Origin: Taiwanofungus camphoratus
Taxonomy: Eukaryota; Basidiomycota; Agaricomycetes; Polyporales; Taiwanofungaceae
Direction of reading: 5' to 3'
NCBI GenBank assembly: GCA_003999685.1
Contig: CP021227.1
Coordinates: forward strand, 682,001 to 746,000
DNA: 64,000 nucleotides
Below are positions 1 through 64,000 of the stretch, piece by piece. The translations under genes were made by a program, and so were the position numbers. Numbering within the stretch: position 1 is the stretch's first letter; the number at the start of each line of letters is the position of its first letter. A model generated the notes under the pieces. The model was given only the letters and a program-made list of their open reading frames with translations. It was not told the DNA's origin and ran no database searches.

Positions 1-73
1 GTGTGTGCCCATAAAGTGTAGGAACTGGTTCGTGAAGGTTCATAGTGCCTCACTTATTCCTTCACGGATCCCC

Positions 74-22482: not shown

Positions 22483-24248
22483 TGATGAGTCCCATAGCCT
22501 CCTGGGCCCCGAATCGCGATTTTAGGAGCTTTCTGATCCCCCAACCGACCACTCTAAGACTCTCCTACAGCCTACGACAGGAGGGATAGGTTCCTATAAT
22601 ATTCCTAATGCCCCCTCTCCTTCCTAAACCCTCCTAACACCCTACGAAGTCTTGCGAAGTCACACGAGGTGCTACGAGATTTCGAATGCTAGACGCGAAG
22701 TCCCTAACTCCTGCTAAGTCCACTATCGGACACTGCCGGCCCTCCCATACTGTTCCATTGGATCTAGGTCCTATCTACAACGTCACTCATCCCGGGCTTA
22801 GCTAAGAAGTCTTAGCTAAGTCTCTCCTAGCTCTTGTGATTGCAGCTCCCTCCGATAGGCTCCGAAACGGTCCGAAGTTCCGGAAATTGGACTTAGGAAG
22901 CCTTGTGCACCCCCATGGGTCTCGATCCTATGCCATAAGGTCATCCTAGGGCGTACCCATATGACCCTCCACCCAGTTAGGACACCTCCTGCCCCGATTA
23001 GGCCAAGTCCCGCTGCTAAGAACTTCGTGCGCTCTTAGCCCGCTAAGATAGGTGATCACGGCGCATGGCTGCTCTCGGATAGTCATCCCGCCCTCGTGAA
23101 TGAAGTTGGTCACCTTTCTACCGTTCGTAGTTCCCCTGTTTCAGTTCCTAATTAGTTCCTATCCCCCTCGTGTTCACTTCGGAGTCCATGCGTTTTAGTA
23201 CACATTTCGGACTCGTAAGGATCACTTCGCGCAAGATTAGTTCACCTCACGCTCCCCTATTTAGTCAGAGGTAGTTTACTATGTACGAGAGAGACCCCTC
23301 AGTATACGCTTCTCTCTTTGGAATACCAGTTCCCCTGTAGCTCCGATCTCAGGAAAGCGCCGCGAGTACAACCTTAGGAACGGTCCTAAGGTCCCTAAGT
23401 CTCCACCCCAGCTCCGTTTCAGTACCTTTGAACTACGTCTACGCTCACGATATATCTACGAACTACGTCTACGCTTCCCGAACTACGCACTACGATCTAC
23501 GAAGTCGCCGTGACTTCGTGCCCTTCAGCACCTCTTATAGCACCTATCCGGTGGGCCTCCGCCTTAGTTATACCCTTAGGCTCACGTTGCGTCATCCCTA
23601 CGTCCTACGAATAACCCTACGACTCCCCCATAGCCTTCATTACAGGCTATAGTACATCTCTCTACGCCCTCGAACTCTCCGACCCACACCTCGACGTCAT
23701 CAAACACTTCAGAGCTTCCAGCAACCTCGTTCCCTCATTCCTATTCCAAGTATTAGCTCTTCGAACCATCCGACCTCTCCTACAAGTCTCCTACGCCAGC
23801 CAAACCTCGCCCACCTTGCTCTAACAAACCTCTAAGCCTTACACCCTTTAGCTAACTCTAGCTAAAAGGACTTCGCAGCAGTCTCGTACCCTCTGCCGCT
23901 TAGTAGAAATTATAGTCCATTGGCTTATTGCTCCCTAATTCTATACAGCCTACAAAGTCAGCTCGCGCGCTTTAGCTAAAACTTCGAAGGACTTCGCAGA
24001 ATCTCGAAGGACTTCGCGTACTTCGGAGGGCCTCGCAAGGCCTTAAGGATAGTCTAGCACTTAGGAACAAGATCCTGTTGTGCAGGACCCTTGACCCCTT
24101 ACTCCCCTACTTACAAAAACAAGACATACAGGTTTCCCGGTATCATATAGGTTGTAGCTCCTACCCTCACACCCTCACAGTTATCACACTACCCCACAGC
24201 CACGTTGCGGAGCACTCCCTAGGTACCAGGGTCCCCTAGGTCGTATCA
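22483..24248 (+). repeat. LTR of a Ty3/gypsy element, plus orientation
   Basis: Runs from TGATGAGTCC to CGTATCA, so it has TG...CA ends with TGAT/ATCA inverted termini, about 1766 bp. Its right 1207 bp (23042-24248) is the reverse complement of 62794-64000 with no net length difference. It is non-coding and rich in short words such as CTACGAAGT and TTCGAAG. No gag or pol follows its 3' end; the neighbouring sequence is a non-LTR element cut mid-frame. Left edge inferred from the TG and the intron-like flank; right edge certain. Confidence 0.85.
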
Positions 24249-27200
24249 CCGGTCGACCTGGATGTGGATGGGGACCAACCCACCCAATATCTCCATCGCC
24301 CCGATCGGTGTGGTCTTGAAGCAGCCGGTGATCCACCTTGCTGCTCTCGACTGGGCGGTCTGCAGTTCTTTTGCAGCCCATTTGAGGCCCTTCCACTGTG
24401 GATTCCACCACAATTGAGCGCCGTATAGCATCAACGGAACGACGTGTGCTATATAGAGCCGCCGTTTGTTGATGGGATGGAATCCGCGTGCCGAATTACC
24501 GAGCATGCGAAGTGCATTGCACGTGCTGGCCGCCTTATTAGCGTAGAACCGCACGTGTGCATGGAAGCTAAGCTTGGGGTCTAAAAAGAATCCAAGATAG
24601 CGCATCGTGTCCTTTGCTCGCAAAGTGACATCATGTCCATCGGTTCGGATGGTTAGATCCAGACCAAGGGGTCGGGAAGTCGAATACCCCTTCTGACGCT
24701 TCCAGAAGTGCATCAACTCCAGCTTGTCTCCTTCGATGCCTAAACCTAAACGGTTCAGATCACCGACAAGATCATGGAAGACATCCGCCAAAATGGTGTT
24801 GTTCTTCAAAACAAGGGCTTGCAGGCTATCATCAACAGCCTTTGGCGAAGCCGCCATGATGAGACCGTCGTCCACATAGAACTGGGTCCCGGTGCGGCCC
24901 GGTTGTACCAAATGGACTGGCACCCACTTGTGTATGACCGGTGCAATATAAACCCCAGATAGAATCAGGGATAAACTCGCTCCTTGACCAACTCCGACAT
25001 CAAAGTCAGATGGATCGGTCAAGGTACCATTAAACATGAATCGGGTTTTCTGCCCGATCAAGTAATTTGCCATGAAATTACAGAGCTTGCTATTGAAGCC
25101 CTGCTTTCGCATGATTCCTACCAACGCATCATGATTGATGGATGGGTAGAACTGTGATACATCGAGCAGCAGCACCGATGGGATAAGGTTGCGCGCCCAT
25201 GCCTCTTTGACATTGTGCACTAATTGAATGCCAGCGTCAGTGGTGCTATGCTGCATAGCTCCGCCAAACTGGCATGGGTGTAGGATTCCCCACTTCTGGG
25301 CATCCCACTGCATTCTTTTGGCAATGATCTTTTCGAACAGTTTGCCAAAACAATTCAGCAAGCAGATAGGCCTGTAGGCCTTCGCTAGCGTATAGTCCGG
25401 TTTGTTCGGTTTGGGTAAAACCACCGTAACAGACCGCTTGAAAATGCTCGGATATACCTCGAAGTCGAGGCAAGCGTTATAGTACGTGCACAGCCATTGC
25501 CGCACGTGTATACCGAGATCGGTCTCGATGCCCTCCTCAGAGCGCTCGATCCGATCCACCATCCATTTGATCCACATTCAGTTCACGTGATCGGGACCGG
25601 GTGCAAATGTATTGCTAGTGAATTTGAGATTCTCGCGAATCTCAAACTCACTAATATCTGGTAGAGTCAATTCCTCCCTTTGGGGAATTTCATCCACAAA
25701 TGACAGATCCACCGGCCGTGGGTTGGCAGGCGTGAACTGAGCTTGGAATGCACGGCTGAGGTCAGTCGCACTTTGGACTGGTGCACCGTCAGCTTGTTGC
25801 AGCTGAATAGTGGCCTCTTGTCGTCTCGGCTTTGTCCATGCAACAAAGTCCGAGATCAATTGGGGATTGGATTCATCCATGATCCGATCAAAGTGTGCGC
25901 GCTTCGCCCGCTTCGTGACAAGGCGAAGTGTTGCACGTTGTTTATGCCGTTCAGACCGAAGTTCGGCAGCAACATCATATGCGTCTGCAGTGGCCTGAGT
26001 GCCAGGTCCCAACTGATGACGTATGTAGCGATACTGCCCAGACACCGCACTAAGGCGGTGCTGGGTGTTCGCCAGCTTAGTGGCCGCACGGGAGCATGCA
26101 GCATCCCACCACAACTTTGAACGTTTGGATGGTCGTTTTACTGCTGAAAACTCCATCCATAGTCGTTGGAGGTCTCGCTCGAGGCGATCCCCCATTCTTT
26201 CAACGCCTTGGGCGCTGCTGAAGTGTGTAGGGTAATCGGCGAACAATTTCGCCGTTGCCATCACAAATTGTTGGGCCGCGTCGCCGGTACGAGGAATACC
26301 CCGCACCGGTTCTGGCTCAACCTCAATCGGCATCTCCCACCACAGGACCGCGTGGTCGCTGTTGTGGCGGTGTGACATGAGTACATGAAGGTCTTGGCCT
26401 TCATAGTACACTGGGTCAATCCACACCAAGTCAATGACTCCAGGCGTGAGAGCAATATTGTGGGAACGCCAAGTGACTGGACCGTCCTGGGCGTTCATCA
26501 AGACCATATCGAGTTCGGCCTGGGCCAACTCAATGAGGCGATTGAAATCGGCGTAGTGCGGAGGCCACATCCGAGATCCCGCAGCTCATGCATCCCACAA
26601 TGGGTGGCGGAGATTGAAATCCCCGCACATACACGCAATGGGTGGAAGCGCGTGTACACGTGTTTCCAAATATCTAACAGCATCAAAAGTGGTGCTGTCA
26701 TTGTACACGTTCAGGACATTAAAGTCCCCGGACGGAAGCTTGAGCGCTACCAAAAGGCAATCCTTATGGGAGACGCTGTGGGTGACAACTTGCGGAGAGG
26801 CCGAAGCCCACCGCTTGTTGACATATACTGCAACCCGGGAATCTTTCGATGCCCCAAGGCACTTGAACGAAGCATGGGCAGACGTATTCTCATACGCCTC
26901 CCTGTCCTGTGACTTAGCAGAGGCCACATCCTTGATGCGGCCCCAGAATATCTCTTGGACGCAGATAATATCGGTGTCTCTATGTCTCTCGAGTAGAATG
27001 CTCGTATTCTCCGCAGATTTCTGAACATTCGCACTTATGCATGTGAGTGCGGGCCTCATAGGCTCGTCTCTCAGATTGTCGCCGTCAACCGTTGGGCTGG
27101 GCATACGGGAGGGGTCCGCTTCCACCACCATGGGGGAATCGGGCCGTTCATTATGTTGTGAGGCCGGCGGAATTCCAAACGGTGGGGCCGAAGCACCGTC

Positions 27201-27737
27201 AGAAGAATCCAGTTCACACGGTTGTCCATTACTCCCATAACGGGTTGATGGTATTGAACCCAATCCGGTGTGCCATGCACTACCTTCATGGGCAAAGGGC
27301 ATGGATTCAGCAAGGCTGCTTCCAGCACTAATGTGGTCGTTGCCCCCTCCCCCAGAGGGGATTGAGCAGCTTCCGCATCTTTGTGAATTGTCTGACACTA
27401 TGTCCATCGATTCAAAGAGAGGACCTCTCTCTCGAGAGGAACTCGAAGTGGAACTCTCCCCATGATATGGTGAGTTCATAGTTGTGTCCAATGGACGAGA
27501 TCTCAGATGATCCGAGTCAGCTTGAGTGCGATGAGCAGGGCAGCCGCCATGCACCGACATCGCACTCGACGAGGTGGGTGCACCATCAGTCCTAAGACCA
27601 ACAGCGGCTATAGGGGCACCAGTATGGGGGGAATTGGGAAGGAAACAATGAGATTTAGACATGCTGGGCACGGGCGCTAAATCGAGATGGTGGTGGTACT
27701 GGTTCAAGAAGCGGCGAAAAACTGCGCCACTTATCAC
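24249..27737 (-). mobile_element. Non-LTR (LINE-type) retrotransposon, 3'-truncated and decayed
   Basis: One minus-strand frame runs from about 27737 to 24249 and is interrupted by TGA at about 26586 and at about 25578. Domains in order: a Ser/Pro-rich N-terminus; an AP-like endonuclease (ISANVQKS near 27030, ICVQEIFWGRIKD, CMCGDFNLRHPLWD near 26600); a basic linker; a reverse transcriptase with KAYRPICLLNCFGKLFEKII, VGQGASLSLILSG and an intact YVDD; then the thumb region up to GGLVPIHIQVDR. There the frame meets the LTR: the first three LTR bases are the TGA that ends it. The C-terminal part and 3' end are absent from this flank. First ATG in the open frame is near 27662. Not active as it stands. 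Confidence 0.88.
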
Positions 27738-27960
27738 TCTGTAGTCTGCACTCTACTTACCGTAGCCGCTGGCAGCCTTCGGTATTGACAGCGTCGCCAT
27801 CTGTTCCTGTCGACCGCACTGTTCCAAGCACACGATAGTGAAACACAATCACGGGATGCAGCACTGAATCAAGCAAAGATACCGGCGTTATATCCACGCG
27901 TCGAAGACGAAATCATCCAAGAGAGGACAGAGTGTAATAGACTCGGAGCACGGAGCGAAA

Positions 27961-30828
27961 ATGCCACCTCCAAGAAATTGGTCCTACCCACCCACTCGAC
28001 GCGAGATCACACTCCTGCTATTCTCTTTGACAGTGTTTGTCCTGTCGTACAATCTTGAGACATCGTTGCAATTAGTTGGAGTTCACCCCACAAGGCTGAG
28101 CTCCTCGTATTTGTCCACTATCGGTATGTCCATGTCATGTCCTTCCGTTTCCTCACAGCGAGCATATATAGTTTATTGCGTCTTTCCGCGTAATAAATGA
28201 ATGTCATGTGCTCTCGACCAACCAAACAGCGTTGTACTTTCGATGCCTTTTGGTTGGTCAACGGTTGACTTCGACGATGTGGTGTTCGCGCTGGAAGTGA
28301 GCATCGATGTGTTTCCACACGTGCTCCATCCTGGACGCCTGTGATACCGCAATCGTTCAGGAGGATGCTAATGGCATACATGCTTTTCTCATCGCAGAAG
28401 ACAGGGGGGCTGGTTACTTGTCTTTGGCTCAAATGCTTGTTGTAATCGACTGCTCGTGTAACATGAAGTGTACACTACTCGCGGCCTCACTAGCATGTCT
28501 CCTCATGAAGCTCGTTATTCTTACCAAGAATCGGATGTGTCCAGGGCTCGTGCATAGTACACGAATGTCCAACCTTGGACGGCATAAGGCGTTTTATTTG
28601 AACCCCTAAAACTCTTCTTTGTTTCCCTATCTTGTTTCCAAGTTCTAAAAGTCATGAGATACGGGTACTAATGCATCATCTGTAATGACGGGTGAAATAG
28701 GTATTGGCACGCCAGACCCCGGCCTTGATCCTGACGGACGCAGGCCAAAAGAATGGCGGGATGAGTTGGAAGATGTGATCTTCGGCGAGTGGCAATGGGA
28801 GGTAGGAAAAGTCTCAGGAGTTGAGCGCGAGCAGGTCGGCGTAGGAATCGGCAATGCTGCCATATACAGCGTTGGTTACAGCAAAACAGTAGGAAGAAGT
28901 GCAGGAAGAGAAGATAGAGGGATAGGCCTGACGACTGGCGCCACAGTGCAGCAGCAATTCTTACGGTGGAGGAGCGAGGTGCCTACAGCGAAGGTGGTTG
29001 CGCATGTTCCGGGTGCGTACTCACTGCTGACTATCATTGATCTCATTATTGCTGCCCTTGATTCTGATCCGAGCCGTCAGGTTATACGATTCTTGACAAT
29101 GTTCTTGTTGCAAATGGGACATTGTTCTTGGTTACTGACGACGCTTCTTCGTTGCCCTCTGCTGATGCTATGGCTTCCTCTGCTCTAAACTTGGAGCTTC
29201 CCCCTCGTCAGCAAGATTTACAAGTCTTGAACCGGGAAGAAGCAAGGGTGCAGTTGGGTGCATTTGGCGGAAGGTGTGTAGCTCAACCTCAAATTGAGTG
29301 TGACACTATCTTTCACAGTAATGGTCACTCATAATCTGGTTATTGTAGGATCTTTGGTACTACTTGGCTCTCAACCGACCCTGCCAGGTCGCAAGACCCC
29401 TACACGCTCTTCTCTTTGTTCCGGACGCACAGCACCTTGGCTAGTGCATCGTCGTCTGGCTTTCACAGCATACCGTCTGGAAGCCAGGTTGGGTCGGTCA
29501 GCGGCATTCCGGCTCCGTTGAGACTGATATTCCCACACGTGCCCACATTTTCAAGCCCTCATATACCTCCAAGCGACGGGGATCCAAAGGCACATCCACC
29601 ACCAAGAGTTCGGTCATATAATGGCAGGTCTCGTCTTATCCAACTTACAACGTTCCGAAAGGAGATACTGATGTGCGGAATTGCTCTTGTAGGCATACAT
29701 CCCCTTCTTTCCAAGGCTGTGCTACCGACGGTTGGTGTTTGGTATTCAGAAGATTGGCAGGACCTTGCAGATATGAGCGTTCCCTGGCTGTTCGATCGGG
29801 TCGTTATAGCAGATCGTGGAGCAGCTGACAGAGGAAGAGAGCGCTGGAGCGCAGGTTGGTCTCCACCTGGAAAGCCAGCTGGAATCGGAGCTGGTGCAGA
29901 GTTCAAAAAAAGAGCCGAAGGAGACGAAGGGATGCCATCATGGGCTGCGCCGTTTGTGGGACTGGAAGCACGGAACAATTGGTGGACTCCGATGCGTGCT
30001 GCTCTCCTGCGTTACCTCAAGATTACAGAATCGCAAGCAAGACCATCGAATACACGCTTCAAATGGGGCAGAAAGTCAAAGTCTAGTTTCAAAAAGCCAG
30101 TCATAACGTATATATCAATGCAGTCAGAGCCACTGGGCGCTGGACCGCGATTATGGGATGAGGATCATGACGCTTTGGTAGCGGGTCTCAGAGGGTTGGA
30201 AAGAGAGGGTCTGGTGAGTGAAATGCATATCGTGAGAGGGAATGGAAGCCTAGACGTGCACGCATGGGAATGGGAGGAGAGAATGAAGGCTATCGCGAGG
30301 TCGGACGTGAGTAATCAGACTATAATAGCATCGGTTTCCCGCTGATGGTCTTACGCTTACCGTCACCGCCGTCTATTCTCGTTTGGTCTCATAGATTGTA
30401 CTTGGTCCCTATGGCTTCCACCTCTCCGATAGCATCTTCATGGCGCCGCCGACTTCGCTTCAGCAGGATGTGACCCCTACGCCCGAGCATAATGAGAAGC
30501 AGCCGCAAGGACCACTGGTCATTGAGTTCTTCCCTCCAGGTACATTTGTACCTGATCAGGAGTTTGCGGTTCGTTCGTTAGGGTGCAGGTACATGGCTTG
30601 GTGGAATGATAGGTTAGTCTATCACTTCTCTACGTGCTCTCTCGAATATGGTATCATTGAACTGATGCCACAATCGTGTCTCGCGTCCTTTCGGACAGGA
30701 AATTCTCCGATAGTTCTCTTCCGCCGGTTGTGCGACCGAATGCTAGCCAAGGACAGCGGTTGTCATTAGACGTCGGCGCCGTTATACAGGCCATACGAGA
30801 AGACATCTCGAGAGGAGCTCTTACCTGA
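27961..30828 (+). CDS. Putative GT61-type (DUF563-like) glycosyltransferase, type II membrane protein
   Basis: Six exons: 27961-28123, 28659-29012, 29081-29273, 29349-30306, 30395-30612, 30699-30828; 672 codons (671 aa), phases consistent. A short basic N-terminus is followed by one membrane anchor (ITLLLFSLTVFVLSYNL), giving a lumenal catalytic domain in the secretory pathway. Family-like segments: NVLVANGTLFLVTDD, GGRIFGTTWLSTDP, LFDRVVIADRGAADRGR, MHIVRGNGSLDVHAWEWEER, and IVLGPYGFHLSDSIFMAPP with LVIEFFPPGTF and RYMAWWNDR near the end. Probable role: addition of a sugar to glycoproteins or cell-wall glycans; donor and acceptor unknown. Intron 1 is 535 bp, far longer than the others. The open frame of the LINE element starts only about 220 bp upstream, so the native promoter may be altered. 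Confidence 0.7.
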
Positions 30829-33386
30829 CGTCAGGTCTTAGGGTGATCTCAATTGCTCCTGCATGAGCCATAGCGATGTACGCATGGTGAGATCACATGT
30901 AGGTGACACTGCGCCGTTATTACATGCATCACCATGGCCTACCTCCTGAGTATAGCTTCGAGTGAGTCGTGCATGGGTCGGACTGGTCAAGTACACTAGC
31001 TTCTTGTGAATGATTCCTCCCACTGCTTAATTTATCCCGAGACTGGATTTAAGCATGAAATCACAATAGCTGTCTGAACTCGTATATCTTCGCAGATACC
31101 TAAGATATTCTCGTCATACCCTTCTTGCAACGCTGCGAGGGAGAGCTCACGCCCCTCACCAAATACCTAAGTATGGCCTTAAGATTTGAGCGACGCTAGC
31201 ATGAAGAACCAGTGCACATTTTATGACATATCAATCAAGCATTGCTGCTCACGTCAGTGGGCATGGTCAGAGGTCTCTGATATTCGGTATTCCACCATGA
31301 GTCGTTGAAGGGGATATCTTCAGAAGCGAGCATGACGTGACACAAGTCATACAATGCACACAAGCTAGATCCAACGTTTGAGAGATAGATGACATACAAC
31401 GAGTTGAGCATATCTCTCGGGGAACAAATCACCTTGCACAAAACGCAGTCTAGTAACATCAGTATAGTCGGCACGGTCCCGACACGAGTTCCAAAAATGG
31501 GAAATATCTATAACCGACCTTTATTATAAAATCAAATAACGGCCGTAGAGCTGTATTGCATTCGTGGTCGAGACTAGACTTGTGTTATACTTGATAAGGG
31601 TGACTACAGACAGCGAACCCAACAGTTCGATTCATGACAAGTCAGCAACTGCACTTTTGCGCCGTCAAAGTGCTGAGGATTACCAGAGAGGCACTTAATA
31701 GGTGACGGGTTGGTTGAAAATTCACCGGCACCGGCCAGGTTAGAGTAGATCGGCAGAACTTACCGAGCCCGAGTACTAATGTTGACATATTCGCAATAGT
31801 TGCTCGAAGACGTTTCTCCCACTGGTGCTGTTGAAAAAGTTCCTAGCCTGACTTGCCAATGTAACATGCGAGGGACTTGTAAAACGTGATAAAGTCAAAG
31901 GCTTCTCACTCACCTGTCTATCAATGGCTGACGAAAGGCATCCATATCGTTCACACGGACGCAACGTCGCTAGTCATATCAGTGCGCGGGGTACCTCGTT
32001 TGGTCCCTACGTCAGTTTGTTCCCGAACATTTCCTGCGAGATATGAGTCATCGTTCGGCTGTATTTTCACGGCGAGAAATTGGGCATGGTTCGTGGAACG
32101 ATAAGTCGTAGCAGCTGCTATTCTGAATGTTCTGTAGGCGATTATCTTACATGCATCGTTGGTCCCGATTTGGACTGTGTCCGATATATACTCACTTGCC
32201 TGAGGGCAAAAAGGACTGTGAGTAACTTGAGACTGGGTGTAAAGCGCGCGCTAGCACGCGTAAGATAATCTTTGGTCATTCCGCCAAATTTTGTCTGATC
32301 GATCGGTGCGTAAGTATCCTTCCTAATCCTAGGCTTGGACTAGCTTATCTTGGTTCTCTCTATATTCTTCAATTCCCAAGGACCGTGCGCTGACTGCTCA
32401 AGGGAGCGCCTCGATTTGATCATTGATATGCATATCAGACAGATTGAACCTGCGTCGCCTGGTGAATGTCGTTAAAAGTCCTAGCACTGACGGGCGCCCC
32501 TGGACCCTGACCGAAGTCTGCGAACTTGACTATGTTCGACTGCATATTACGACCTACATCTGACATTGCCGTCTGTAAGTCATCTAGAATCTGATCAACA
32601 CCAGGCCAGGATGTCGCAGAGCAAAGTTAGAATTGAACGATCTTGTGCGCTGATTGTTAAAGGATGTCACGCAATTCAGTACCTCAGGTACAGTCCAGCC
32701 CAATGCCTAGTAGGGCTTGTGGTGAAAAAGCGAAATGAAGCAGAGTTAGTGCCTTTATTCAGATGTTAACGTCCAGTGGTGAACGGCGAGCAAAGTTCGA
32801 GGTACCGAACATCGAATACCTAACGTGGATCCGTCAACGCGTGGTCCCCTGAAAGCCATGAGACCTGTACGTGTGCCCACGCGCTCACGTGCACTTGGCG
32901 ATAGAACGGTCGATTACAACCACCGTCATGTTTTCTGGATACTGATTTAATCTCTTCGTCCATTTCGAATACGTTTACACCACTGCTTGTGTCTTTATAA
33001 GTCTTCGCTGCGATGATCATTTACGAATAAGTACTCCGTTATTTTGACCAAACTGTTGCTGCTCAGGTAGTATACACGAAGTTGTTTATGTCCTGTCTAA
33101 AGTTTTGCCAACTTCTGATAAGCGTTCACAGCACTTGTTATTGCGAACATTATTGTTCTATACGCGATCATATCACGAATTGACTAGCGGAGCCCAGAAA
33201 CCTGCTTATATGGCTCATGCGCTCTTCGTGCATAAGTATAGTATGTCCAATGCGGGATCATCGTGCCGTGTCCCACACGGTCTTTTGTGATACGGAACTC
33301 GAAACTCGGTCAAGAAGCTGACATCAGTTATAAGCATAAGCCCTCTGCCTATCAATACCCCAGGGTTTTCCCCTCTTCCATTCACT
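30829..33386. other. Intergenic, no supported gene
   Basis: Only short frames (under about 80 codons) on both strands and none recognisable. It includes the 3' flank of the glycosyltransferase and the 5' flank of the decayed oligopeptide transporter. No repeat was noticed. Confidence 0.4.
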
Positions 33387-36300: not shown

Positions 36301-36956
36301 TGGGCGTAAGTGTCGTGCTTGTGGCAGTGGCAGACGCAGACGACTGATGTCGGTCATGCTCCCGCGCTGCCAGGTGGGGGTGCGGGTAGTATTCCGATTA
36401 CCTGTACGTCGGGATCAACACGCAGGTGAAGTGAGTCCTCCCTTGCGGCGTGATGTGGTATTGCATCTGACGGCGCGCCAGCACGAGGATCGGGATCTTC
36501 TCGCAGTGGTGGGTGCGCACGCGCTACCCGCGTTCGTTCACCAAGAACAAGTACGTCTGCCAGGACTCCGCAGGACTCCGCGCGACTGCGACTGCGCCAA
36601 GCGCCTTCTGACGAAACACCAACAGCTACATCGTCGCGGCGGCGATGGACGGCGGGACGCAGGTGGTGCTGTTCATCCTCAGCTTTGTGCGCCGTGTCCA
36701 CCCGATGTCGCGCTACGCGGCATCTGACTGACTGACTGCCTGTCGCTCTTCCTCCGCGGTGCTGCGCGGCGCATTGTGCGCACGGGCGATATTCGGCGCG
36801 GCCGGCAACGCACACGCGTTCCCGCCGTGGTTGGGCAACGGTACGTTTCACGCGCACCGCGCCCTTAGGAGGCTCTAGCTCACTTTGACACTTTGGGTTC
36901 TTGCGACCGAAGACCTCAACCTTTCTGCCGACCGCTGTGTGCTGCCGCCACGATAA
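33387..36956 (+). pseudogene. Oligopeptide transporter (OPT) paralogue, decayed
   Basis: Same family and same intron positions as the copy at 12797-16114, and it runs to the matching C-terminus (NLSADRCVLPPR). Lesions seen: the ATG at 33387 (MADVVQ) is out of frame with the conserved ERFANDEATEDEYRVEEAYE; about one base is missing near 34228-34233 in the GYG-AG stretch; an extra base near 34450 brings a TGA into CWEI-FPE; TGA near 34961 just before a donor; TAG near 35636 in YGG-PMSQG. Between lesions the protein is well conserved (NPGPFN, KEHVAIIIMSS, QAKQFPFMSQAIF, VTFCMQ, SGTRLWSGQNAQSY), so inactivation is recent. The 36-37 kb part is more GC-rich than the rest. A functional product is unlikely. 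Confidence 0.88.
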
Positions 36957-44963: not shown

Positions 44964-45063
44964 CCTCCATGTGCGCGGGAGCAGTAGCATTCTGTGTTTC
45001 CCCGCTGCGAGTCCAGTCGCACGTCTATTTTTGCTGCGACCAGGAAGACCGACCAGCGACGCG

Positions 45064-52278: not shown

Positions 52279-52285
52279 TATATAG
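52279..52285 (+). promoter_or_regulatory. TATA box of split membrane-protein gene
   Basis: TATATAG about 110 bp before the ATG at 52392, followed by a pyrimidine-rich leader. Inferred from position. Confidence 0.5.
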
Positions 52286-52391
52286 TGGGTCTCGTCGCTC
52301 CTTTTACCTTTTCCCCCATCTCGGCCCCGCGACGCGAGTCCGCAGCCCGTCCCACTCGTCCCATCCCTTCCAGACGTAACAGTTCATCGAG

Positions 52392-54018: not shown

Positions 54019-54030
54019 GTGAGTAGCTGA

Positions 54031-54035
54031 CCTCC
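54031..54035. repeat. Candidate target-site duplication, copy 2 (CCTCC)
   Basis: Lies 12 bp into the donor-side intron stub of the split gene. It is the complement of GGAGG at 22478-22482, and the two would flank the insertion after un-inverting. Weak on its own because of its length. Confidence 0.35.
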
Positions 54036-54099
54036 AACCCTTGTCCTTGTGGTACCGTCAGGTGATAGACCTCTCCCTTTTGCCTTTCCCTTCCCCATC

Positions 54100-55477
54100 A
54101 TGTTCGATGATATGGACTCTGATGGTGTTGGCCTAGCTCACAGCGATGTCCTGGCGCTCCTCGATTCTCGTCCGGAGGGCGTAGCGGAGGCCGAAGATTA
54201 TCTGTGGTGGGCGAGGAACTTAGGACGTCGTGTGGTACGTATCCTCCTCGATCGCTCGATACATTGTCTTCACTGCGTTATAGGGTAACTGGCGGGTCCT
54301 GTCCCAGGCTTCGAACGCTTCTGCTGATCCTACCTTAGAGGCCGCCATCGTCGAAGGTTTGACGGCGATCCTCCCTCTCGCGGACTCGTCGTGGATCTCG
54401 TGGGCTCGCACCGGCTTTCCTCAGTTCGCTGCTATGCTTCAAGAGCGAGACGCACAGCGCGAACTCGCCCGCGCGACCGAACGACTTCGTGTGGAGGCGG
54501 TCGAGCGCGCTGCGCTTGAACGCGCTGCCCAACTTGCGGCTTCGTCTTCTGCTCCCTCGCCAGCCCCTAGTCGTACCTCATCGCGCACTCGTCGTCCCTC
54601 AGCTCGGGCCAAGGCAGCAGCTTCTACTCACGCGGCTTCCCAGGCCAGCTCAATCATGGCCTCCGTTTCCAGCGGCCAAGTCGGCAAACTTGCCTCGTCC
54701 ACTAGTTCGGGTGTCTTCGTAGGGGTCCCTCCTACTCAGGGGAAGGATACTGCGAAAGCGAAGGCCCCTCCGACGCCTGAAGCCCTGGCTAACATGGCGA
54801 AGGCGGCAGAGCATCGGCGAACCCATGTGAAGGTGAGTGCACGTCTTTTTCGTGACTGTTCGCGGCTTATCATCGCTACCTAGTGCGATCGCTGCAGCAC
54901 CTACACCACAGACTTCGAGTGCGAACTCCTGGTGGGTGCCGTGAAGTGCGGCAAGTGTCTGCGAGAGTCGCAGGGGTGTTATTGGGGCGGATTCTCCGTA
55001 GACGGTAAGGAGCGCGGCGTGCGCATTTCGAAGCGTGGTAGGGCTTCTCGTGCCCTCGTTATCGCGACATTGCTGATGTTAGGACGTTCTCTAGCTGCGG
55101 GCCAACCTCCTCAGATGTCCCCGCCTCGCGCCCGCGAGTCCAAGAAGGCGAAGTCGACCCCTGCGCCTACAATGTCGCTCGAGGCCTCGCTGGCCCTTAA
55201 CGGCGCCGAATACTTGGACGGCCTCACCCCTGCGCATCAAGCCGTTGTCGAAGGCCTCTGGTATGACCGCGCGATGGCCGAGAGTCGCGCGATGCGTCTC
55301 GAAGACTACATCTCGGGGCTCTATCGTGCCGAAACCGCCTTAACTGGTCGTACGCCTGCGCCGCTCGACTTGAGCTCTCTCCCTCTTCCTCGCCGTCACG
55401 TCACCGCCTCCTCTACTGATCCTGGTCCCTCCGGTGAGTCCGAGCAGGATGAGGAAGATGCCGAGGCCGAGGTTTAG
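54100..55477 (+). CDS. Cysteine-cluster protein of unknown function, antisense passenger beside the gypsy element
   Basis: Three exons: 54100-54234, 54284-54832, 54884-55477; 426 codons (425 aa), phases consistent, no lesion. The N-terminal part is acidic (MFDDMDSDGVGLAHSDVLAL) with WWARNLGRRV; a coiled-coil-prone ERDAQRELARATERLRVEAV is followed by a Ser/Ala/Arg-rich linker. A six-cysteine cluster then follows with spacing CX2CX8CX8CX2CX6C (begins CDRCSTYTTDFEC), reminiscent of a Zn2Cys6 binuclear cluster though wider in the first loop. The C-terminus is acidic (EQDEEDAEAEV). It starts about 65 bp inside the inserted block and points towards the gypsy pol 3' end. Codons are GC-rich, unlike pol. 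It could be a captured host regulator or an element-encoded accessory protein; function not assigned. Confidence 0.65.
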
Positions 55478-56010
55478 AAGGTGGGGGGGGTTCGTAGTTC
55501 GTCGTCTCGCCCATTCCGTATCCGTCGCACCAATGTGCTGTATTTTCTCTCGTTGCGCGTCCCTTTGCTAGGGACATTTTCCAATATGTGTACAATAGTC
55601 TGAATATAGCGGACGCAAACGTCGTCCTTGTGAAAAGGTTCCTAAGTGCGTGAAGTAACCAAACAACACAAAGATGAATTAGAAGACTTAGGGGGATAAA
55701 ATGCGCTCATTTAGGCTCAGTAAATCATCATGGCCTTGAAGGGCTTAAGGCCCCTCGCGCAATCTTCGCTCCGCTTGGCATTTTAGGAGCCTTTAGAACG
55801 ATATCGTGACTTCGTGAGTTGAATCACTATAGTAAAAAGTCGGAGATGTTGTAAGTAAAAATTCGTAGACATTCGGGACTTCGTAGCTGTCAAACTGAGT
55901 GGGGGCTTGTTGGGGAAAGTAAAACATGACCAAAGGGTAAGCGAAAAGTAAAATGGACGTAGCGTAATCTTAGCTAAAGTCGGGGTATCGTCGATTGCTC
56001 CTCTGATTCT
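55478..56010. other. Region between the cysteine-cluster gene and pol 3' end
   Basis: About 530 bp where the 3' LTR of the minus-strand gypsy element would be expected. No match to the LTR end (ATCA / TGATACGACC) was seen. It is rich in the same CTTCG/TCGTAG words as the element interior, so it may be untranslated element sequence. Confidence 0.45.
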
Positions 56011-59000
56011 TTAGTGAGCTTCGGATGGACTAGAGCCGGACTTAGGAGAGTAGGGATACGATCCTAGTTCTTCGTCATCGCCTTGGGTGGTAGTCAGCTC
56101 TAGTTCGCGAAGTCGCTCCGTTGACACGTCCAAGAGTTCGGTAGGAAGTTCGAGGGCTTTTCGCGCTAAGTAGGGGATGACTCGGAAGGCTGCCGTAGGC
56201 CTGTCGAGTACCGAACCATCCAATTCGCATAGGATATAAGCACCACCTTTGTTTCTCGATACCACGAGTACCGGGCCGAGGTAGCGAGGTCGCATCTTTC
56301 GATTTAGGGACTTTTCTATCTGTGTGTTGCGAATTAGTACTAAATCGCCCTTTTCGAAGTTGAAATCGTGGATGGTGTGCTTATGCTTCTCTTCGAATCG
56401 CAGAGCAGCTTGTCTTCGCGCTTCGTAGACCTTCGAATGTAGTTCTGCTACCTGAGTCACCCGCTTTTGCAATGCGATAGCTCGACGTGCGATAAGATCG
56501 GTCGTGGATAGCATGGAGGACGGAGGAGGAAGGATATAGGTGGCCTCTACGACGTCCAAGGGGATAACAGGGTGGGTGCCAGTGACCGCGAAATAGGGCG
56601 AACATCCCATGCGCTTTCGAGTCGTGATCCTTTCGGACCAGAAGACTGAGTACGTTGCCTGAGACCATTTAGACTCTTCGCCATCCACGGCCTTGAATAG
56701 AGCCTGCCTAACATCGAAGTGAGGCCTCTCCACCAGTCCGTTGGCACGCGAATTGTACCCACTAATTCGGATGTGTCGTAGCTGGTACTTCTTCGCTATG
56801 TAGTTCGTGGCTTTTACGAAGGGAGCGCCATTGTCCGTGACTATCTCCGATAGCGCGCCCCACCTACAAACAAAGTCTTCGAAGAGCCATTCTGCCAAAG
56901 CTTTAGCCGTCTCCTTGCGAAGCATCCGAAATTCGGGGTATTGGGTTAGAGAACACCGGCCTTGCACCAAGTACCTAAATCCGTTAGAAGGGGGCATATG
57001 CATGGTATCTATATGAACCTTTGCAAAGATCGGAGTGGGCGTAGCGACCGTAGGAGGGATTAGGATCTGCCACACTTGGCGAATCTGGCATAGGTGGCAG
57101 CTTCGAACATACCAGGCAATGTCGATATGATGGTAGGGCCACCAAAACCGCTCCGAAATCAGCACCTTCGTAGCGTGTATTCCTCGATGCGCGACTGCAT
57201 CGTGACATTCTCGGAGGATTCGTAGACGATCTGCCTGCTTTACAACTAGTTTGTGAGCTCCTTGTGGATCTTTGCGCCATAGTATGTCCTCGTCGAGGAA
57301 GAATAGAAGGCAGTATTTTACGAAACCTTCGTATTCTGAATCCGATAGGTTGGCAGGTCTCGCGAGGCTTCGTAGGAATTTTGCTACTAAGTCAAGTCTT
57401 GCGTCAGCTTCCTTGGCCATTTCGGATCTTGGGACACTATTGTAGCTCTCCTCCTCCCTATTGAAACCTTGGCTGTCCTCAGCCAACTCGGAGGCGAAGG
57501 TTGGAGCTATCAGAGGTGTGGGGGTTGTGATAGGAATGTTAGAGGCGAATTCGTAAGGGAATAGGGTAGAAATTGATGGTATAGGATGGGAAGGGGGGGC
57601 TTGGATGTGATGTAGAAACGAGTGCATTTTGTCTATCCAGTCTTCGAAGTCTTCTTCGCTGCTCTCTTCTTGATCTCCTGGCTGGGGGGTTCATCTTGAT
57701 AGTCCGTCTGGTCCATGCATCGTACCTGGTACATGTACTAGGGTGAAATGGAATGTTAGAATCGATACGATCCAGCGATTTATACTCGCGCTGGGTGCGA
57801 TGTCCGGATTTTGCAACATCCCTTTGATATAGCGTGCGTCAACCTCTACTATAAGGTTCCTAACTCCGATTAGGTAGATTCGTAGTACGCGAAGTGCTCG
57901 AAACAATCCGTAGATCTCTAACTTCGGTTGCGAGAACCTCCGCTCGCGATCATTTAGGGTGATGGATCCGAAATGATTGTAGAATCGAACTTTAGGGTTG
58001 TCCTCATCGCATTGGCAAAGGTGATAGCCAACTGCAATATAGGAGGTGTCAACCGCTAAGATCACGGGCGCACCTGACGAATAGTTAATGGATCAGAGAG
58101 CTGGGGAGGACAGCAAAGCATCCTTAAGGTCCTCCTGCGCTGCGATTTGCGCTGGACCAAATTCGAAGGGTACCGCCTTTCGCGTTAGGTGTACTAAGGC
58201 ATCTGCACGATGTGCGAAGTTTCGGATGAAGATACGGACCACTCCAATGGTTCCTAGAAAGGCTCGAACGTCAGATAGGGTCGCACAAGGTCCCCAGTTG
58301 CGTATGGCTGCAACACGAGACTCGTCCGGTAGGCGACCTTCTGGAGTACACCGATGCCCTACAACGGTGATTTCGCGGGCAATTAGAATGCTTTTAACTC
58401 CAGAAAAGGTACCTCCTGCATAGCGCATGCGTGTGACTATCCTATTGAGGTTCGTAAAATGTTCCCAAACAAACTTTCGAATGCCTGGGTTCTCCGAAAT
58501 AGGTACGAGATCGTATGAACTTTCAGGGCCTTTGACCGGAACATCGTTGATATAGGGAACCGTTAGGTGAGGAATTTCGGGCTGTAGGATGTGCGTAACA
58601 TCATCGTGGAAGATAGGGACCGAGTTGGTCCACCCCATAGGTAGAGTGACCAATCTCATAGCTCCGAAAGGTGTTTGAAATGTCGTAAGATCGTGCGAAG
58701 TCTCCGCTATCAAGCGTTCATCATAGCCTACATATAGATCCAACATAGCACCACAAGGTCGTCCTCCGAACTGTTCTGCGAGGTGTTCGGGAGTCGGGGG
58801 AACGCCTGAGTGTTGAATCGTGACAGCGTTTAGGGGTTCCAGACTATGTACAAGGCGTAGGGACTTTCCGTCTTTCTTCACCACACAAAACCATCGTGAA
58901 CGATAGGAAGAATTCAAAGGTTCGTAGACCCTAGCTGCGATCTTCTTTTTGATTATTGCGCACACTTCGTTGTAGATTCCGGGTGGAATAGGAATGTTCT

Positions 59001-59865
59001 TTTGTACCCATGGCGTGTGCGGTACTACCGGAAAGTCGATAGGAGGGAAGTACTCCGGCTTGAAGCACCCCCTTTCGGAGTCATTCCAAGCGAACGCATC
59101 AGCGTGTAGGGTCATAAAATGATGTAGTAGGTCCCTCTCTGCTGGTTGTAGGAAGTCTCCACTGTGTAGCTTGTCCGTGAGATCGTGCCGTTCTTGCGTA
59201 TATCGCGAAGTAGGTTCGAAAGGTGGTGGAGTCGGTGATAGGGTAGGCATCGTCGCTAAAGGGTCGCCTTTAATTTCGCGAATGATTCGGAATCGTTCGT
59301 CCAAAGCTCCCAGAATAGGGCGAGTCTTCAGCGCTACAGGCTTGTACTTCTTTTTCGATGCTGCAAATGTAGGAATAGGGGAAGAATCTGACAACTTAGG
59401 AAGGGATACCATCGGATTAGGAGCAAGGGAGGGTCTTCGGGCTGACTTCGTGACCTTCGTAGCGTTCCTGGGACCTGGAATGGGGATAGAGGATATGTCT
59501 TTAGAGGCGGAAAGCGAAAGCATAGGGAGAGAATTCGGATTATCGTGTGAAAGGGAGGGAGCCTCAGGCGGTGTTGCTGCTGCTAGAAAGCCAGATAGCC
59601 ACCTAGTATGATCAGCAGGACCTTCCGAGACTTTCGAAGTTTCGCTAAAATAGAGAGACTGCAGATAGCTAGACACAGAGTTAGAGACTGATAGATAGAG
59701 CGCAGGAACAGAATTGTTATCTGCCGCATTTACAGCAGCGAAAGACACGATTTTAGGGGTATCGGATTCATACTCAACGACCAGGGCGACCTCTCCTTGA
59801 TTTCTCAAATCCTCGAAATCTAAAAACCCGATCGTAAATGATTTGAAGAGTTCATGTGGGGGCAA
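56011..59865 (-). pseudogene. Ty3/gypsy pol: reverse transcriptase, RNase H, integrase (decayed)
   Basis: One continuous minus-strand frame broken by two TGA codons (near 58092 and 57688). Order: linker; RT with an RSRWFCVVKKDGKSLRLVHS fingers motif, LDLYVGYDE, TLPMGWTNSVPIFHDDV and YINDVPVKGP; RNase H with AVDTSYIAVGY, KLEIYGLFRALR and PGTMHGPDGLSR; integrase with an H2C2 zinc finger (HDAVAHRGIH...CHLCQ), a D-D-E core (HIDTMH, VTDNGAPF, GLVERPH) and a GPVLVVSRNKGGAY C-terminal barrel. No chromodomain seen. The RT box, normally YIDD in this lineage, reads YIND, which loses a catalytic Asp. Both stops lie where CGA (Arg) is likely. The element is therefore inactive. RT-RNaseH-integrase order places it in Ty3/gypsy (Metaviridae). 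Confidence 0.93.
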
Positions 59866-62753
59866 CTATGATGATGGGCTGGTAAGAACTTTTGACGTCC
59901 TCGAGGCATCGTAGGGATGGTCGCGACTTCGCTCGTGTTCGGGCATACGATCGTGATGGTCTGCTCCTCGTTTCCGAAGTTCTTAACCATACTCTCGGTT
60001 ATCACATCGAAGGGACGGCCTAGAAGGATATCGTAGGAGGGATTGCGTATGACGTGCATCTGTAGGTACAACACGATGTCGCCTACTTGGAACGAGACAT
60101 TTCGAACCAGTCCTAAGGAACGGTCAATACTGCCATTAGCAGACTGCATATTTAGCTGCACGGAAGGGTCGTAGATTAGTCCTAAGGCATGACAGACTTG
60201 CTCTGACATCGCAACCACTTGTGACCCAGGGTCCACGATGCATTCAATTCGCTCTTTGTTGTCGATTAGGGCTTCGATAGAACAGATAGAGTTCGAGTCG
60301 CGGGCTACTATAATTTCGGAGGGTTCTTCCTTTCCGGGTACGTGTCGTAAGTACGTTTCGTAGGGGTCTGGAATTATGGTCGAACCAGGGACAAGGGGTT
60401 CACCGTGGCACGATAGTTCGGAGGTTGCTAGCGTCGTTTTAGAAGCGAGATCGTCTGAGAGTTCCGTAATTTGAGCCATATGAGTAGCCTTAGGATCCAT
60501 AGGCACACGTTTAGGGGTGATAGCTTCGCGATATCGCGCACGAACATCCGGGGATATAGATAGTAGCTCCTCGGGCGTTAGTGTAACCACTGGTGTTCTC
60601 ATAGATCGCGCGAATATTTCCTCTGTAAGTTTCTCCTGATGAACCGGTGTGATCGTCTTATAGGCCACGTCCTTGCCTTTGTCTGCTGTAGGCTTCGGAG
60701 CTGCTGCGAAATTTCGAAGATTCGGAGGTGTGTAAGTAGCATCTCGAGCATTAGCGAAAGGATGTACTGGTGGAGCGGGCGGTGGAATGGCTGCCTGTGA
60801 TGCTGGTTGGGCTGGTACGTTAGGTGTAGACGAGGCATGCTCCGATGAGTTCGTGGGTGGATCGGACGCATTCGCAGGCTTCGGAGGTGACGGCGCTGAA
60901 TTAGAAGGATAATTGGATCGCCTTAGAATGGTAGGAGGGGTCTGGTTCTGCGCCTCCGCCACTGGGGCATCTTGGTTAGCAGGGGGATCCACTACTGGAT
61001 GCTGAGCGCGTCCTATCAGAGGTGCGTTGGCTAAGGGTGGGTTTCTAGGATCAGACTGCGCGTTAGGAGCACCCTGCCTTCTGCGCTGGGGTACTTCCAC
61101 ACCATCGAAGACTTCGCGACGTCTCCGAAGTTGGTAAATCTCGTGTTCTAAAGCGGCTATACGATCCTCGGCGGATAGTGAGAATGCGGGCACATTTAGG
61201 CGATTGTCGATTTCGAATAGGAGCTGTGGGGAGGAATTCGTGCCATTTCGTCGATGATATTCGTAAAGCCTATCGCGAATCATACATCCTGGGATCGTTC
61301 TGGGTACGAAATTTCCATTTGGCAGCACTATCTTTCCATCTGGGTTGCGCTTGCACTTGCCATCCTTGATGTCTTGCTCAATGTGCTTGCAACACCTAGT
61401 GCAGCAGTCCAAGTCCCCGCAATAGTGACAGTACTGGCCTTCTACATGAGTGTGCTCGCCGCGCGAGCTGTCCAATCGAGGGGGTCGCTGGTTCGCAAGA
61501 ACAGGAGCTAGCGCACTGGTTACGGACTTCGTGAGGATCTCTGCGAACGTCTGTAGATCCTCTATCTTTAGCGATGAGCCCCCCACGGGCACGGCAGTGG
61601 TCGAAGCAGTTACAGTCGTAGCAGAGGTAAGAGTCGTAGAAGTACCAAGGAGTACGAACTTCGCTGCGCTATGTAGCTGGTCCAAGGTGTAGGGATCATC
61701 GGGTAAGTGATCGGGGAACTTTAGCTGTAACCTAGTAGACACGCGAGCCCACAGTGAAGGCTGGAAGGCCCTCGCGAAAGCACGGCTTTGCTCGATAGTA
61801 GACAACCTATTTTTCGAAATTAGGTACTTCGTGATGGCATAAAACTCACGATAGAAGCTTCCTAAGTCTGCCGCATTGTTGATTCCAATTCTAGCACGTT
61901 CTCCTATCAACTGATCCAAGTCAGACATAGACCACATTCTATCGTCCTCTGTGCCTGGGTAGAGGCTTCTAATCTCCTTCTTGAAGTCTTCGTAGGTCTT
62001 CGTGACATCGGAACACTCAGGGAGGGACTCCCATAGGTCCGAAACATCGATAGGAGGGTAGCGAGTAGTCCAGTGTTTCTTTGTCGCCTTATCCGCTATC
62101 TGGCAGCGGACAAAAAGTGACTCTAAGTCCTGAAAATACCTTCGGATGGTCCTAGGCTGGTCAGGATCGAAGGTGGGGGATGTACGATCTCCTCGGGGCG
62201 GCATGAGTGGAGGTGCGTTCATGGTTGACACAGAAATAGGATTTAGGGGATTAGCTAAAGTGGGTGCGGTCAAAGATGGGTTCGATGCTGAGTTGATGCT
62301 AGCTGAAGAAGATTGGGTCGTAGAAGCGTCGGAAAGTGTAATAGAAGGAATCGGAGGGGAACGCGAAGCTGATGGGAGCGTAGAGGATAGCTGAGGGGAT
62401 GCCAGTAAATGGACTAAGATAGGGTCAGACGCTGAAGAAGGACCGCTTCCTTCGGAGGTGTTAGGAAGCTCAGGGGACGTGGACTGAGGTTCGAAGTCCT
62501 CAATTGGTGAGTCTTCGGACGTGGTAAGCGTGTCTAGAGACCCTTCGAAAAGAGCCTCGAAGTCGGGGGTCGATTCGGAAGATTCGAGTGTAGAAATGAT
62601 ATCGGAGGGGATAGTCGTAGGTGTTCGCGAAGCGGTGCTTCGTGGAAGGCCTGCTTGAGTATAGTAACGATAGCCGACCTGAAAGAACTCGGATAGTAAC
62701 TGATCGCTGTTTCTCGGAGAGGACTGGTTAGACGTAGGATGATCTGAAGGCAA
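59820..62753 (-). CDS. Ty3/gypsy gag with aspartic protease
   Basis: Open frame of about 977 codons. Ser/Thr/Pro-rich acidic N-terminus; capsid-like helical region (RTIRRYFQDLESLFVRCQIA, WESLPECSDVTKTYEDFKKE); a Cys/His cluster CHYCGDLDCCTRCCKH that differs from the standard CCHC knuckle; a long Pro/Ala-rich linker; then a retropepsin-like protease IECIVDPGSQVVAMSEQV with ILLGRPFDV. The usual DTGA-type active site reads DPGS, as in related fungal gypsy elements. The 5' end of the frame has no ATG near the LTR (it opens at a TTG); the first in-frame ATG is near 62222, so the start codon may be lost. The stop overlaps pol, which is in the -1 frame. Confidence 0.85.
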   Translation of the reverse strand: MPSDHPTSNQSSPRNSDQLLSEFFQVGYRYYTQAGLPRSTASRTPTTIPSDIISTLESSESTPDFEALFEGSLDTLTTSEDSPIEDFEPQSTSPELPNTSEGSGPSSASDPILVHLLASPQLSSTLPSASRSPPIPSITLSDASTTQSSSASINSASNPSLTAPTLANPLNPISVSTMNAPPLMPPRGDRTSPTFDPDQPRTIRRYFQDLESLFVRCQIADKATKKHWTTRYPPIDVSDLWESLPECSDVTKTYEDFKKEIRSLYPGTEDDRMWSMSDLDQLIGERARIGINNAADLGSFYREFYAITKYLISKNRLSTIEQSRAFARAFQPSLWARVSTRLQLKFPDHLPDDPYTLDQLHSAAKFVLLGTSTTLTSATTVTASTTAVPVGGSSLKIEDLQTFAEILTKSVTSALAPVLANQRPPRLDSSRGEHTHVEGQYCHYCGDLDCCTRCCKHIEQDIKDGKCKRNPDGKIVLPNGNFVPRTIPGCMIRDRLYEYHRRNGTNSSPQLLFEIDNRLNVPAFSLSAEDRIAALEHEIYQLRRRREVFDGVEVPQRRRQGAPNAQSDPRNPPLANAPLIGRAQHPVVDPPANQDAPVAEAQNQTPPTILRRSNYPSNSAPSPPKPANASDPPTNSSEHASSTPNVPAQPASQAAIPPPAPPVHPFANARDATYTPPNLRNFAAAPKPTADKGKDVAYKTITPVHQEKLTEEIFARSMRTPVVTLTPEELLSISPDVRARYREAITPKRVPMDPKATHMAQITELSDDLASKTTLATSELSCHGEPLVPGSTIIPDPYETYLRHVPGKEEPSEIIVARDSNSICSIEALIDNKERIECIVDPGSQVVAMSEQVCHALGLIYDPSVQLNMQSANGSIDRSLGLVRNVSFQVGDIVLYLQMHVIRNPSYDILLGRPFDVITESMVKNFGNEEQTITIVCPNTSEVATIPTMPRGRQKFLPAHHHSCPHMNSSNHLRSGF
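59823..59829 (-). promoter_or_regulatory. Candidate -1 ribosomal frameshift heptamer (G GGT TTT)
   Basis: On the minus strand gag ends TCG GGT TTT TAG. GGGTTTT is an X XXY YYZ slippery heptamer in the correct register, directly before the gag stop, and a -1 slip enters pol as ...GFLDFEDLRN. Gag and pol overlap here by 46 nt. No stimulatory pseudoknot was worked out. Confidence 0.7.
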
Positions 62754-62770
62754 TAAAATCTTGACTGCTC

Positions 62771-62789
62771 CCCCTCGCGGTGGGCTCCA
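62771..62789 (-). other. Candidate tRNA primer-binding site
   Basis: Minus strand, four bases after the LTR end: TGGAGCCCACCGCGAGGGG. It starts with TGG, as needed to pair with a tRNA 3' CCA. The priming tRNA was not identified. Confidence 0.5.
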
Positions 62790-62793
62790 GAAA

Positions 62794-64000
62794 TGATACG
62801 ACCTAGGGGACCCTGGTACCTAGGGAGTGCTCCGCAACGTGGCTGTGGGGTAGTGTGATAACTGTGAGGGTGTGAGGGTAGGAGCTACAACCTATATGAT
62901 ACCGGGAAACCTGTATGTCTTGTTTTTGTAAGTAGGGGAGTAAGGGGTCAAGGGTCCTGCACAACAGGATCTTGTTCCTAAGTGCTAGACTATCCTTAAG
63001 GCCTTGCGAGGCCCTCCGAAGTACGCGAAGTCCTTCGAGATTCTGCGAAGTCCTTCGAAGTTTTAGCTAAAGCGCGCGAGCTGACTTCGTAGGCTGTATA
63101 GAATTAGGGAGCAATAAGCCAATGGACTATAATTTCTACTAAGCGGCAGAGGGTACGAGACTGCTGCGAAGTCCTTTTAGCTAGAGTTAGCTAAAGGGTG
63201 TAAGGCTTAGAGGTTTGTTAGAGCGAGGTGGGCGAGGTTTGGCTGGCGTAGGAGACTTGTAGGAGAGGTCAGATGGTTCGAAGAGCTAATACTTGGAATA
63301 GGAATGAGGGAACGAGGTTGCTGGAAGCTCTGAAGTGTTTGATGACGTCGAGGTGTGGGTCGGAGAGTTCGAGGGCGTAGAGAGATGTACTATAGCCTGT
63401 AATGAAGGCTATGGGGGAGTCGTAGGGTTATTCGTAGGATGTAGGGATGACGCAACGTGAGCCTAAAGGTATAACTAAGGCGGAGGCCCACCGGATAGGT
63501 GCTATAAGAGGTGCTGAAGGGCACGAAGTCACGGCGACTTCATAGATCGTAGTGCGTAGTTTGGGAAGCATAGACGTAGTTCGTAGATATATCGCGAGTG
63601 TAGACGTAGTTCAAAGGTACTGAAACGGAGCTGGGGTGGAGACTTAGGGACCTTAGGACCGTTCCTAAGGTTGTACTCGCGGTGCTTTCCTGAGATCGGA
63701 GCTACAGGGGAACTGGTATTCCAAAGAGAGAAGCGTATACTGAGGGGTCTCTCTTGTACATAGTAAACTACCTCTGACTAAATAGGGGAGCGTGAGGTGA
63801 ACTAATCTTGCGCGAAGTGATCCTTACGAGTCCGAAATGTGTACTAAAACGCATGGACTCCGAAGTGAACACGAGGGGGATAGGAACTAATTAGGAACTG
63901 AAACAGGGGAACTACGAACGGTAGAAAGGTGACCAAGTTCATTCACGAGGGCGGGATGACTATCCGAGAGCAGCCATGCGCCGTGATCACCTATCTTAGC
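62794..64000 (-). repeat. 5' LTR of the gypsy element (partial, runs off the window)
   Basis: The 3' 1207 bp of the LTR in minus orientation, ending ...CGTATCA next to the primer-binding site. It is the reverse complement of 23042-24248 without net indels; at least nine substitutions were noticed, all transitions. Its outer end lies beyond 64000. Confidence 0.9.

Follow-up and report, generated by a model that had tools for sequence, protein, structure and literature searches.

Chromosomal inversions arise in two ways, by ectopic recombination or by staggered breaks with end joining, according to the sections of PMC4965816 drawn on here, in which inversion E12 of Drosophila subobscura is a case of break repair without recombination between repeats. 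In the basidiomycete Taiwanofungus camphoratus, the portion of PMC8865532 available for comparison ascribes karyotype differences to retrotransposon-mediated translocation or inversion events; it places retrotransposons within or next to V5 translocation breakpoints and describes inversions at mating-type loci. The locus analyzed here belongs to the same species, apparently the same strain, and probably resembles E12 in its mode of repair. It differs from E12 in that the host is a fungus, one break lies in a long terminal repeat (LTR) element and the other in an intron, and there is almost no duplication at the joins. The window is a stretch of 64,000 nucleotides (C8:682001-746000), with C8 taken as chromosome VIII of T. 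camphoratus monokaryon W1, and contains a split Gypsy retrotransposon, part of a long interspersed nuclear element (LINE), and a split membrane-protein gene. The DNA comparisons were made within this single haploid genome, the genome searches lying outside window 1-9699. The same portion of PMC8865532 contains no description of the ChrVIII inversion or its mechanism, and literature searches, judged by their listings, recognized no published description of this locus.

The inversion lies within a duplicated block that has parallels of its own. In the consulted part of PMC7450558, permuted order and microhomology closure serve as signs of circular intermediates, and human segmental duplications attributed to circular DNA change an A-B/C-D order to B-A/D-C, close on microhomology or short indels, and leave a non-tandem copy. 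The block in the window shares these features, but it is fungal, has a 68 kb source, lies reversed 46 kb away from that source, and has since been interrupted by an inversion. For the wine yeast Z. bailii, the excerpted text of PMC3053389 also describes a chromosomal segment that spread as circles through non-homologous joining; there a horizontally acquired 17 kb segment occurs in eight forms among 28 strains, whereas here a single native block of 68 kb is involved. The passages of PMC9694575 at hand report no circle-mediated translocation in 306 Magnaporthe oryzae genomes, in which transposable elements were masked.

Sequence comparison gives good support for a real inversion at this locus, smaller than first proposed. 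The inverted segment spans 22340-54069 (31,730 bp), as delimited by its breakpoints, the LINE, the gene copy, and the duplicated pieces. At the left breakpoint (22339/22340, placed within 22335-22350) intron is joined to gypsy sequence, and at the right breakpoint (54069/54070, within 54060-54080) the last intron of the gene is joined to gypsy sequence. A preliminary description of the window had proposed a gene-splitting inversion of 38.5 kb bounded by the inner LTR ends at 24249 and 62793. The gene-splitting inversion itself stands, while the breakpoints in the gypsy internal region and the intron move its ends and reduce its size to 31.7 kb.

The gypsy element is present as two pieces. Like-oriented LTR pairs of its family lie 10.6 kb apart on C10 and C4, and the C10 pair bounds an intact element with an internal region of 8,859 bp, which was used as two separate half queries against the window. 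Internal positions 1-8721 are found on the minus strand at 54070-62793 (1-4420 at 62793-58374 and 4421-8721 at 58373-54070), and positions 8715-8859, the 3′ end with its purine-rich sequence beside the 3′ LTR, are found on the plus strand at 22340-22482; one additional match of 33 bases lies at 57450. The pieces complement each other with a 7-base overlap at 8715/8721 of 8859, which puts the cut some 140 bp short of the 3′ LTR. The order protease, reverse transcriptase, RNase H, then integrase marks Ty3/Gypsy elements. The gypsy block recognized in the preliminary description carries, in order on the minus strand and within 56011-62819, matches to protease (59820-62819), RNase H (57691-58092), and the zinc-binding domain of integrase (56011-57690), with no match to reverse transcriptase or gag among the subset of gypsy frames submitted to Pfam.

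Both LTRs in the window are full copies of 1,766 bp, and both belong to a single Gypsy element, previously inserted in the LINE, of which one is the 3′ LTR and the other the 5′ LTR. The 3′ LTR occupies 22483-24248 on the plus strand, and the 5′ LTR occupies 62794-64559 on the minus strand, its part beyond 64000 corresponding to C8:746001-746559. As originally reported, they are inverted repeats, with 98.9% identity over the 1,207 bases that both have inside the window. The inner side of the left LTR is the 3′ end of the element and that of the right LTR is its 5′ end; on the outer side, each is flanked by CCGG, a target duplication identified by flank comparison at 24249-24252 and, just outside the window, at C8:746560-746563. 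Among 17 LTRs sampled, the two are sisters (support 100/97). The full copies differ at 17 of 1,766 positions; 16 of the differences are transitions, and 13 of the 17 are at CpG (CpG to TpG/CpA). Private changes number 13 in the 5′ LTR and four in the 3′ LTR, an uneven decay within one element.

The LTR family has at least 40 full-length and at least five partial copies in the genome (40 of 539 candidates scored). All 15 LTR copies whose ends were compared start with TGATGAG and end with GTATCA. Matching 4-bp target duplications on both chromosomal sides accompany six of the 15, and a seventh has one mismatch; those six are solo LTRs, with nothing of the element in their 20 flanking bases. TG..CA ends together with a short target duplication of 4 bp are as in Ty3/Gypsy elements. 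Just right of the window, at C8:746786-748551, a solo LTR of the same family with a GCGG duplication lies inverted in the same LINE, 226 bp from the gypsy 5′ LTR, and the LINE of the source copy carries its own LTR near the matching place. A comparable arrangement exists on C4, where a 5′ LTR (C4:1735575-1737340) and an inverted neighbor with CCGG on both sides (C4:1737518-1739283) lie 177 bp apart, differ at only two sites, and have 14 private sites in common; gene conversion between inverted neighbors is possible.

The LINE serves as a control for the insertion. Its 5′ part lies at 24249-27752 on the minus strand, with a reverse transcriptase match and an endonuclease match slightly below the cut-off, and its 3′ part lies beyond the right LTR, outside the window, at C8:746560-750259. 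Both parts are multicopy in the genome. When the LTR flanks are joined with a single CCGG, the resulting 124 bases match 25 of 49 loci compared; 20 of these 25 rows (17 distinct places by tally) pass the gypsy site without a gap at 91-97% identity, and the other five are half matches to the window's own locus. The ungapped LINE copies indicate that the flanks, now 40 kb apart and reversed, were formerly neighbors. The CCGG match was rejected as proof of a single insertion by itself, since CCGG-like duplications recur among the insertions of this family; it is therefore the continuity of the LINE that carries this argument.

The split gene provides a second control. Exons 1-13 lie at 52392-54018 on the plus strand, as established by a gene model and comparison with an intact copy, and the 14th and last exon, with 48 codons and a stop, lies at 22330-22184 on the minus strand, as established by the intact copy and relatives; the separation of 5′ exons from an orphan exon was correctly recognized at the outset. 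The intact copy (C8:799335-803948, 63 kb right of exon 13) passes through both breakpoints and has no gypsy in its last intron. Window 50431-54076 (plus) corresponds to C8:799335-803025, and window 22342-21477 (minus) corresponds to C8:803020-803948; the latter is the end piece of the duplicated gene unit, lies outside the inversion, and matches in two pieces at 89% and 97%.

All exons of the split copy are open, and the 14 joined exons form a frame of 342 residues. The codon comparison, Pfam query, and alignment of relatives used a 339-residue model, which differs from the 342-residue model at the exon 1/2 boundary. In that model, the split and intact copies differ at nine synonymous and four non-synonymous codons (synonymous divergence, dS, 0.039; non-synonymous divergence, dN, 0.006), and no Pfam family was found for the protein. 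In seven aligned relatives, the last-exon residues follow on directly. The best protein relative is a full-length protein from T. camphoratus V5 (98%), and relatives carry the database names hypothetical, transmembrane, or G-protein coupled receptor-type protein. The present-day frame at 53827-54030 would read three codons into the intron and then stop. The split gene is a redundant, spare copy.

The halves of gypsy, LINE, and gene are directly observed, as are unbroken counterparts of the LINE and the gene. A single balanced two-break inversion of 31.7 kb (22340-54069) by end joining very probably accounts for them. Before it, an intact gypsy of about 12.4 kb (1,766-bp LTRs and 8,859-bp internal region) would have lain in the LINE with its CCGG duplication, at a distance of about 30 kb from the 14-exon gene, which was on the same strand. 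After double-strand breaks in a polypurine tract of gypsy and in the last intron of the gene, end joining would have reconnected the segment in reverse orientation, using no more than a few bases of microhomology and losing next to nothing. The inverted arrangement of the LTRs would thus be the result of the inversion and not its cause.

Several observations agree with this sequence of steps. Turning 22340-54069 back restores gypsy, LINE, and gene together. No homologous repeat was found at the two breakpoints beyond overlaps of the gypsy and intron alignments of seven bases at the right join and three at the left, so long homology between the breakpoint sequences is absent, as in a two-break inversion, and the net change is a few bases at most. 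The duplicated pieces are on the plus strand inside 22340-54069 and on the minus strand outside it, except for one sub-piece of 0.5 kb, and turning the segment back makes them minus throughout, again apart from that sub-piece (32268-32836). The break coincides with the longest purine run in the gypsy internal region (23 of 8,859 positions), which was noticed after the break was known; a role for this tract is inferred, like the two breaks and the end joining.

Other observations weigh against a single two-break inversion. The break is not fixable to one base, given the overlaps of seven and three bases and the differences in the purine tract between three gypsy copies. Sub-piece 32268-32836 (= C8:830559-830033, reversed) violates the orientation rule. 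The window LTRs share only three private sites, compared with four, nine, and 12 in three like-oriented pairs, and the right LTR also has two sites in common with the neighboring LTR at C8:746786. The order of events is inferred from comparison within one genome. Finally, the flanks, the kinship of the LTRs, and the complementary halves would also fit a sequence of events that starts with circular gypsy DNA.

In that rival account, gypsy leaves the LINE as a one-LTR circle while a solo LTR stays behind; the circle opens in its internal region and enters the last intron, and the two LTRs then recombine and flip 24249-62793, giving the same end sequence. It predicts the same junctions, LTR kinship, and CCGG flanks, and it would place the breakpoints inside the recombining repeats. 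Solo LTRs are common in the family, judging from the six of 15 copies with matching duplications and the seventh with one mismatch, and there is another circle-like event in the neighborhood. However, three events are needed in place of one, and the sequence calls for neither extra event, leaving this account improbable.

Without the circular step, recombination between the LTRs is barely credible. The preliminary description had regarded it as the simplest cause, with gypsy inside the last intron, and the LTRs are indeed long, inverted, and 99% identical. However, re-inverting 24249-62793 does not restore a two-LTR element; the intron would then hold a circularly permuted gypsy (8715-8859, LTR, 1-8721), and the LINE a solo LTR. 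The LTR model, with gypsy in the last intron, is not the simplest because it first needs exactly these two structures. The LTR flanks are halves of one LINE joined by one CCGG duplication, the gypsy fragments complement each other at one point, and the corresponding intron of the intact gene copy is free of gypsy. As a single event, the inversion has its breakpoints in the gypsy internal region (8715/8721) and in an intron, and so not inside the repeats. A simple LTR-LTR inversion is accordingly rejected, as the structure contradicts it unless a circle step is added.

An assembly error at the repeats is very unlikely. LTR and LINE copies abound in the region, and it was judged from the assembly alone. 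However, both junctions connect corresponding points of the same two loci in sequence without homology, a pattern that a repeat collapse does not produce. The window contains no N, and the relevant part of PMC8865532 describes the W1 assembly as a PacBio assembly without N and with telomeric ends on its 14 chromosomes. Junctions between non-homologous sequences in a PacBio assembly of this kind make misassembly unlikely.

The inversion cuts through a block (window 21477-54076 and C8:746560-753552) that duplicates C8:799-868 kb. Three plus-strand pieces of this block lie inside the inversion. Piece A (50431-54076) corresponds to C8:799335-803025 at 95.6%. Piece B (25350-32988) starts inside the LINE and corresponds to C8:823001-830712, at 95% to 31619 and 77-83% beyond, with the sub-piece 32268-32836 reversed. 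Piece C (41636-50436), which contains an MFS piece and a truncated PWP2, corresponds to C8:858830-867660 in two matches (41636-48400 = C8:858830-865586 and 48426-50436 = C8:865616-867660). To the right of the window, on the minus strand, C8:746559-750259 is a LINE piece corresponding to C8:820977-817270 (both of these LINE copies carry a solo LTR, in positions that differ slightly), and C8:750261-753552 corresponds to C8:807937-804670.

When the inversion is undone, the minus-strand block reads 804670-867660 and then 799335-803948, which amounts to a single 68.3 kb segment in circularly permuted order. At the closure junction, 50431-50436, source positions 867660 and 799335 meet on the 5 bp GTAAA. 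The block thus shows both an order permuted relative to the source and source ends joined on microhomology, the signs used for circular intermediates. PWP2 gives a direction, since the source frame continues for 370 codons past 867660, while the window frame stops at the junction; the window block was therefore rejected as the original. Two unrelated duplications side by side were also rejected, because in a source of 68 kb the block ends (source 803948 and 804670) are separated by about 720 bp, and inside the copy the two ends of the source come together.

It is likely that 68 kb of ChrVIII (799,335-867,660) gave rise to a circular copy that closed on 5 bp and opened again at a point between 803,948 and 804,670. 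This circle would have inserted in reverse orientation 46 kb upstream, after which the copy would have taken up gypsy and then undergone the end-joining inversion. Some observations on the source may count against this circular copy. Source 807938-817269, most of which consists of an LTR and a second LINE, has no counterpart in the block, and neither has source 830713-858829, which contains several LTR pieces (as read outside 843001-849000). In place of the latter, window 32989-41635 carries OPT and NLR remnants without a match in the source. The source stretch of about 720 bp between the block ends was not found in the window or in two further loci compared (L005, L006).

The order of events can be partly reconstructed. 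Judging from the alignments, the LINE is probably older than the duplication, because the match runs from LINE into non-LINE sequence in both blocks, although the LINE stretch 24250-25349 is less alike between the blocks (93.4-93.7%) than the rest (95.4%). The LINE in the source block is interrupted elsewhere but unbroken at the gypsy site, so the gypsy insertion would postdate the duplication, and the inversion would be the last event. The three duplicated pieces show 2.8%, 2.2%, and 0.86% substitutions. Given these uneven divergences and the predominance of CpG among the LTR changes (13 of 17), no date in years is given.

Much of the gene content named in the preliminary description has indeed been turned around. 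OPT transporter remnants (33658-35638, plus) and a NACHT-ankyrin open frame of NLR type (39161-39931, minus) were identified with Pfam within the inverted stretch and have no match in the source block. A sugar-transporter MFS piece (45903-46520, in piece C) was also identified with Pfam, and the PWP2 piece (48426-50436) was named from Periodic tryptophan protein 2, one of the best-matching solved structures. The GT61 gene listed with them was not recovered in 60 Pfam queries of window frames (some duplicate, and a subset of frames), and Pfam returned nothing for most frames submitted between 28 and 48 kb.

Diverged OPT stretches at 12930-15776 and 33480-36553, both with OPT matches and 72-85% alike in pieces, now have the same orientation and were mutually inverted before the inversion. 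Elsewhere in the window, 9049-9638 is an imperfect palindrome of about 590 bp (reverse self match, 88%). A short dispersed repeat at 10275-10551 has more than 20 genome copies and an inverted sub-repeat and is possibly a miniature inverted-repeat transposable element. A TENA/THI-4 family open frame (20246-20893, minus) adjoins the left end of the duplicated block.

Both events are of known, ordinary kinds and are unusual in their legibility. The locus holds its own controls in the LINE copies, the intact gene copy, and the duplicated source, which makes the mechanism readable from one haploid genome. It corrects what one would naturally conclude from inverted LTRs lying close to where a flipped segment ends: they can be the halves of one broken element and are not necessarily the cause of the flip. 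Four T. camphoratus monokaryons have been sequenced and can be crossed, according to the available part of PMC8865532, so it can be tested directly how old both events are and whether they recur. The permuted duplication, a candidate reinsertion of circular DNA in a basidiomycete, is the more interesting part of the locus. If the circular copy is real, a mushroom would provide a natural case of segmental duplication mediated by a circle, with a closure readable to the base. The pair of inverted LTRs that remains may now allow 38.5 kb to change orientation repeatedly between nuclei.

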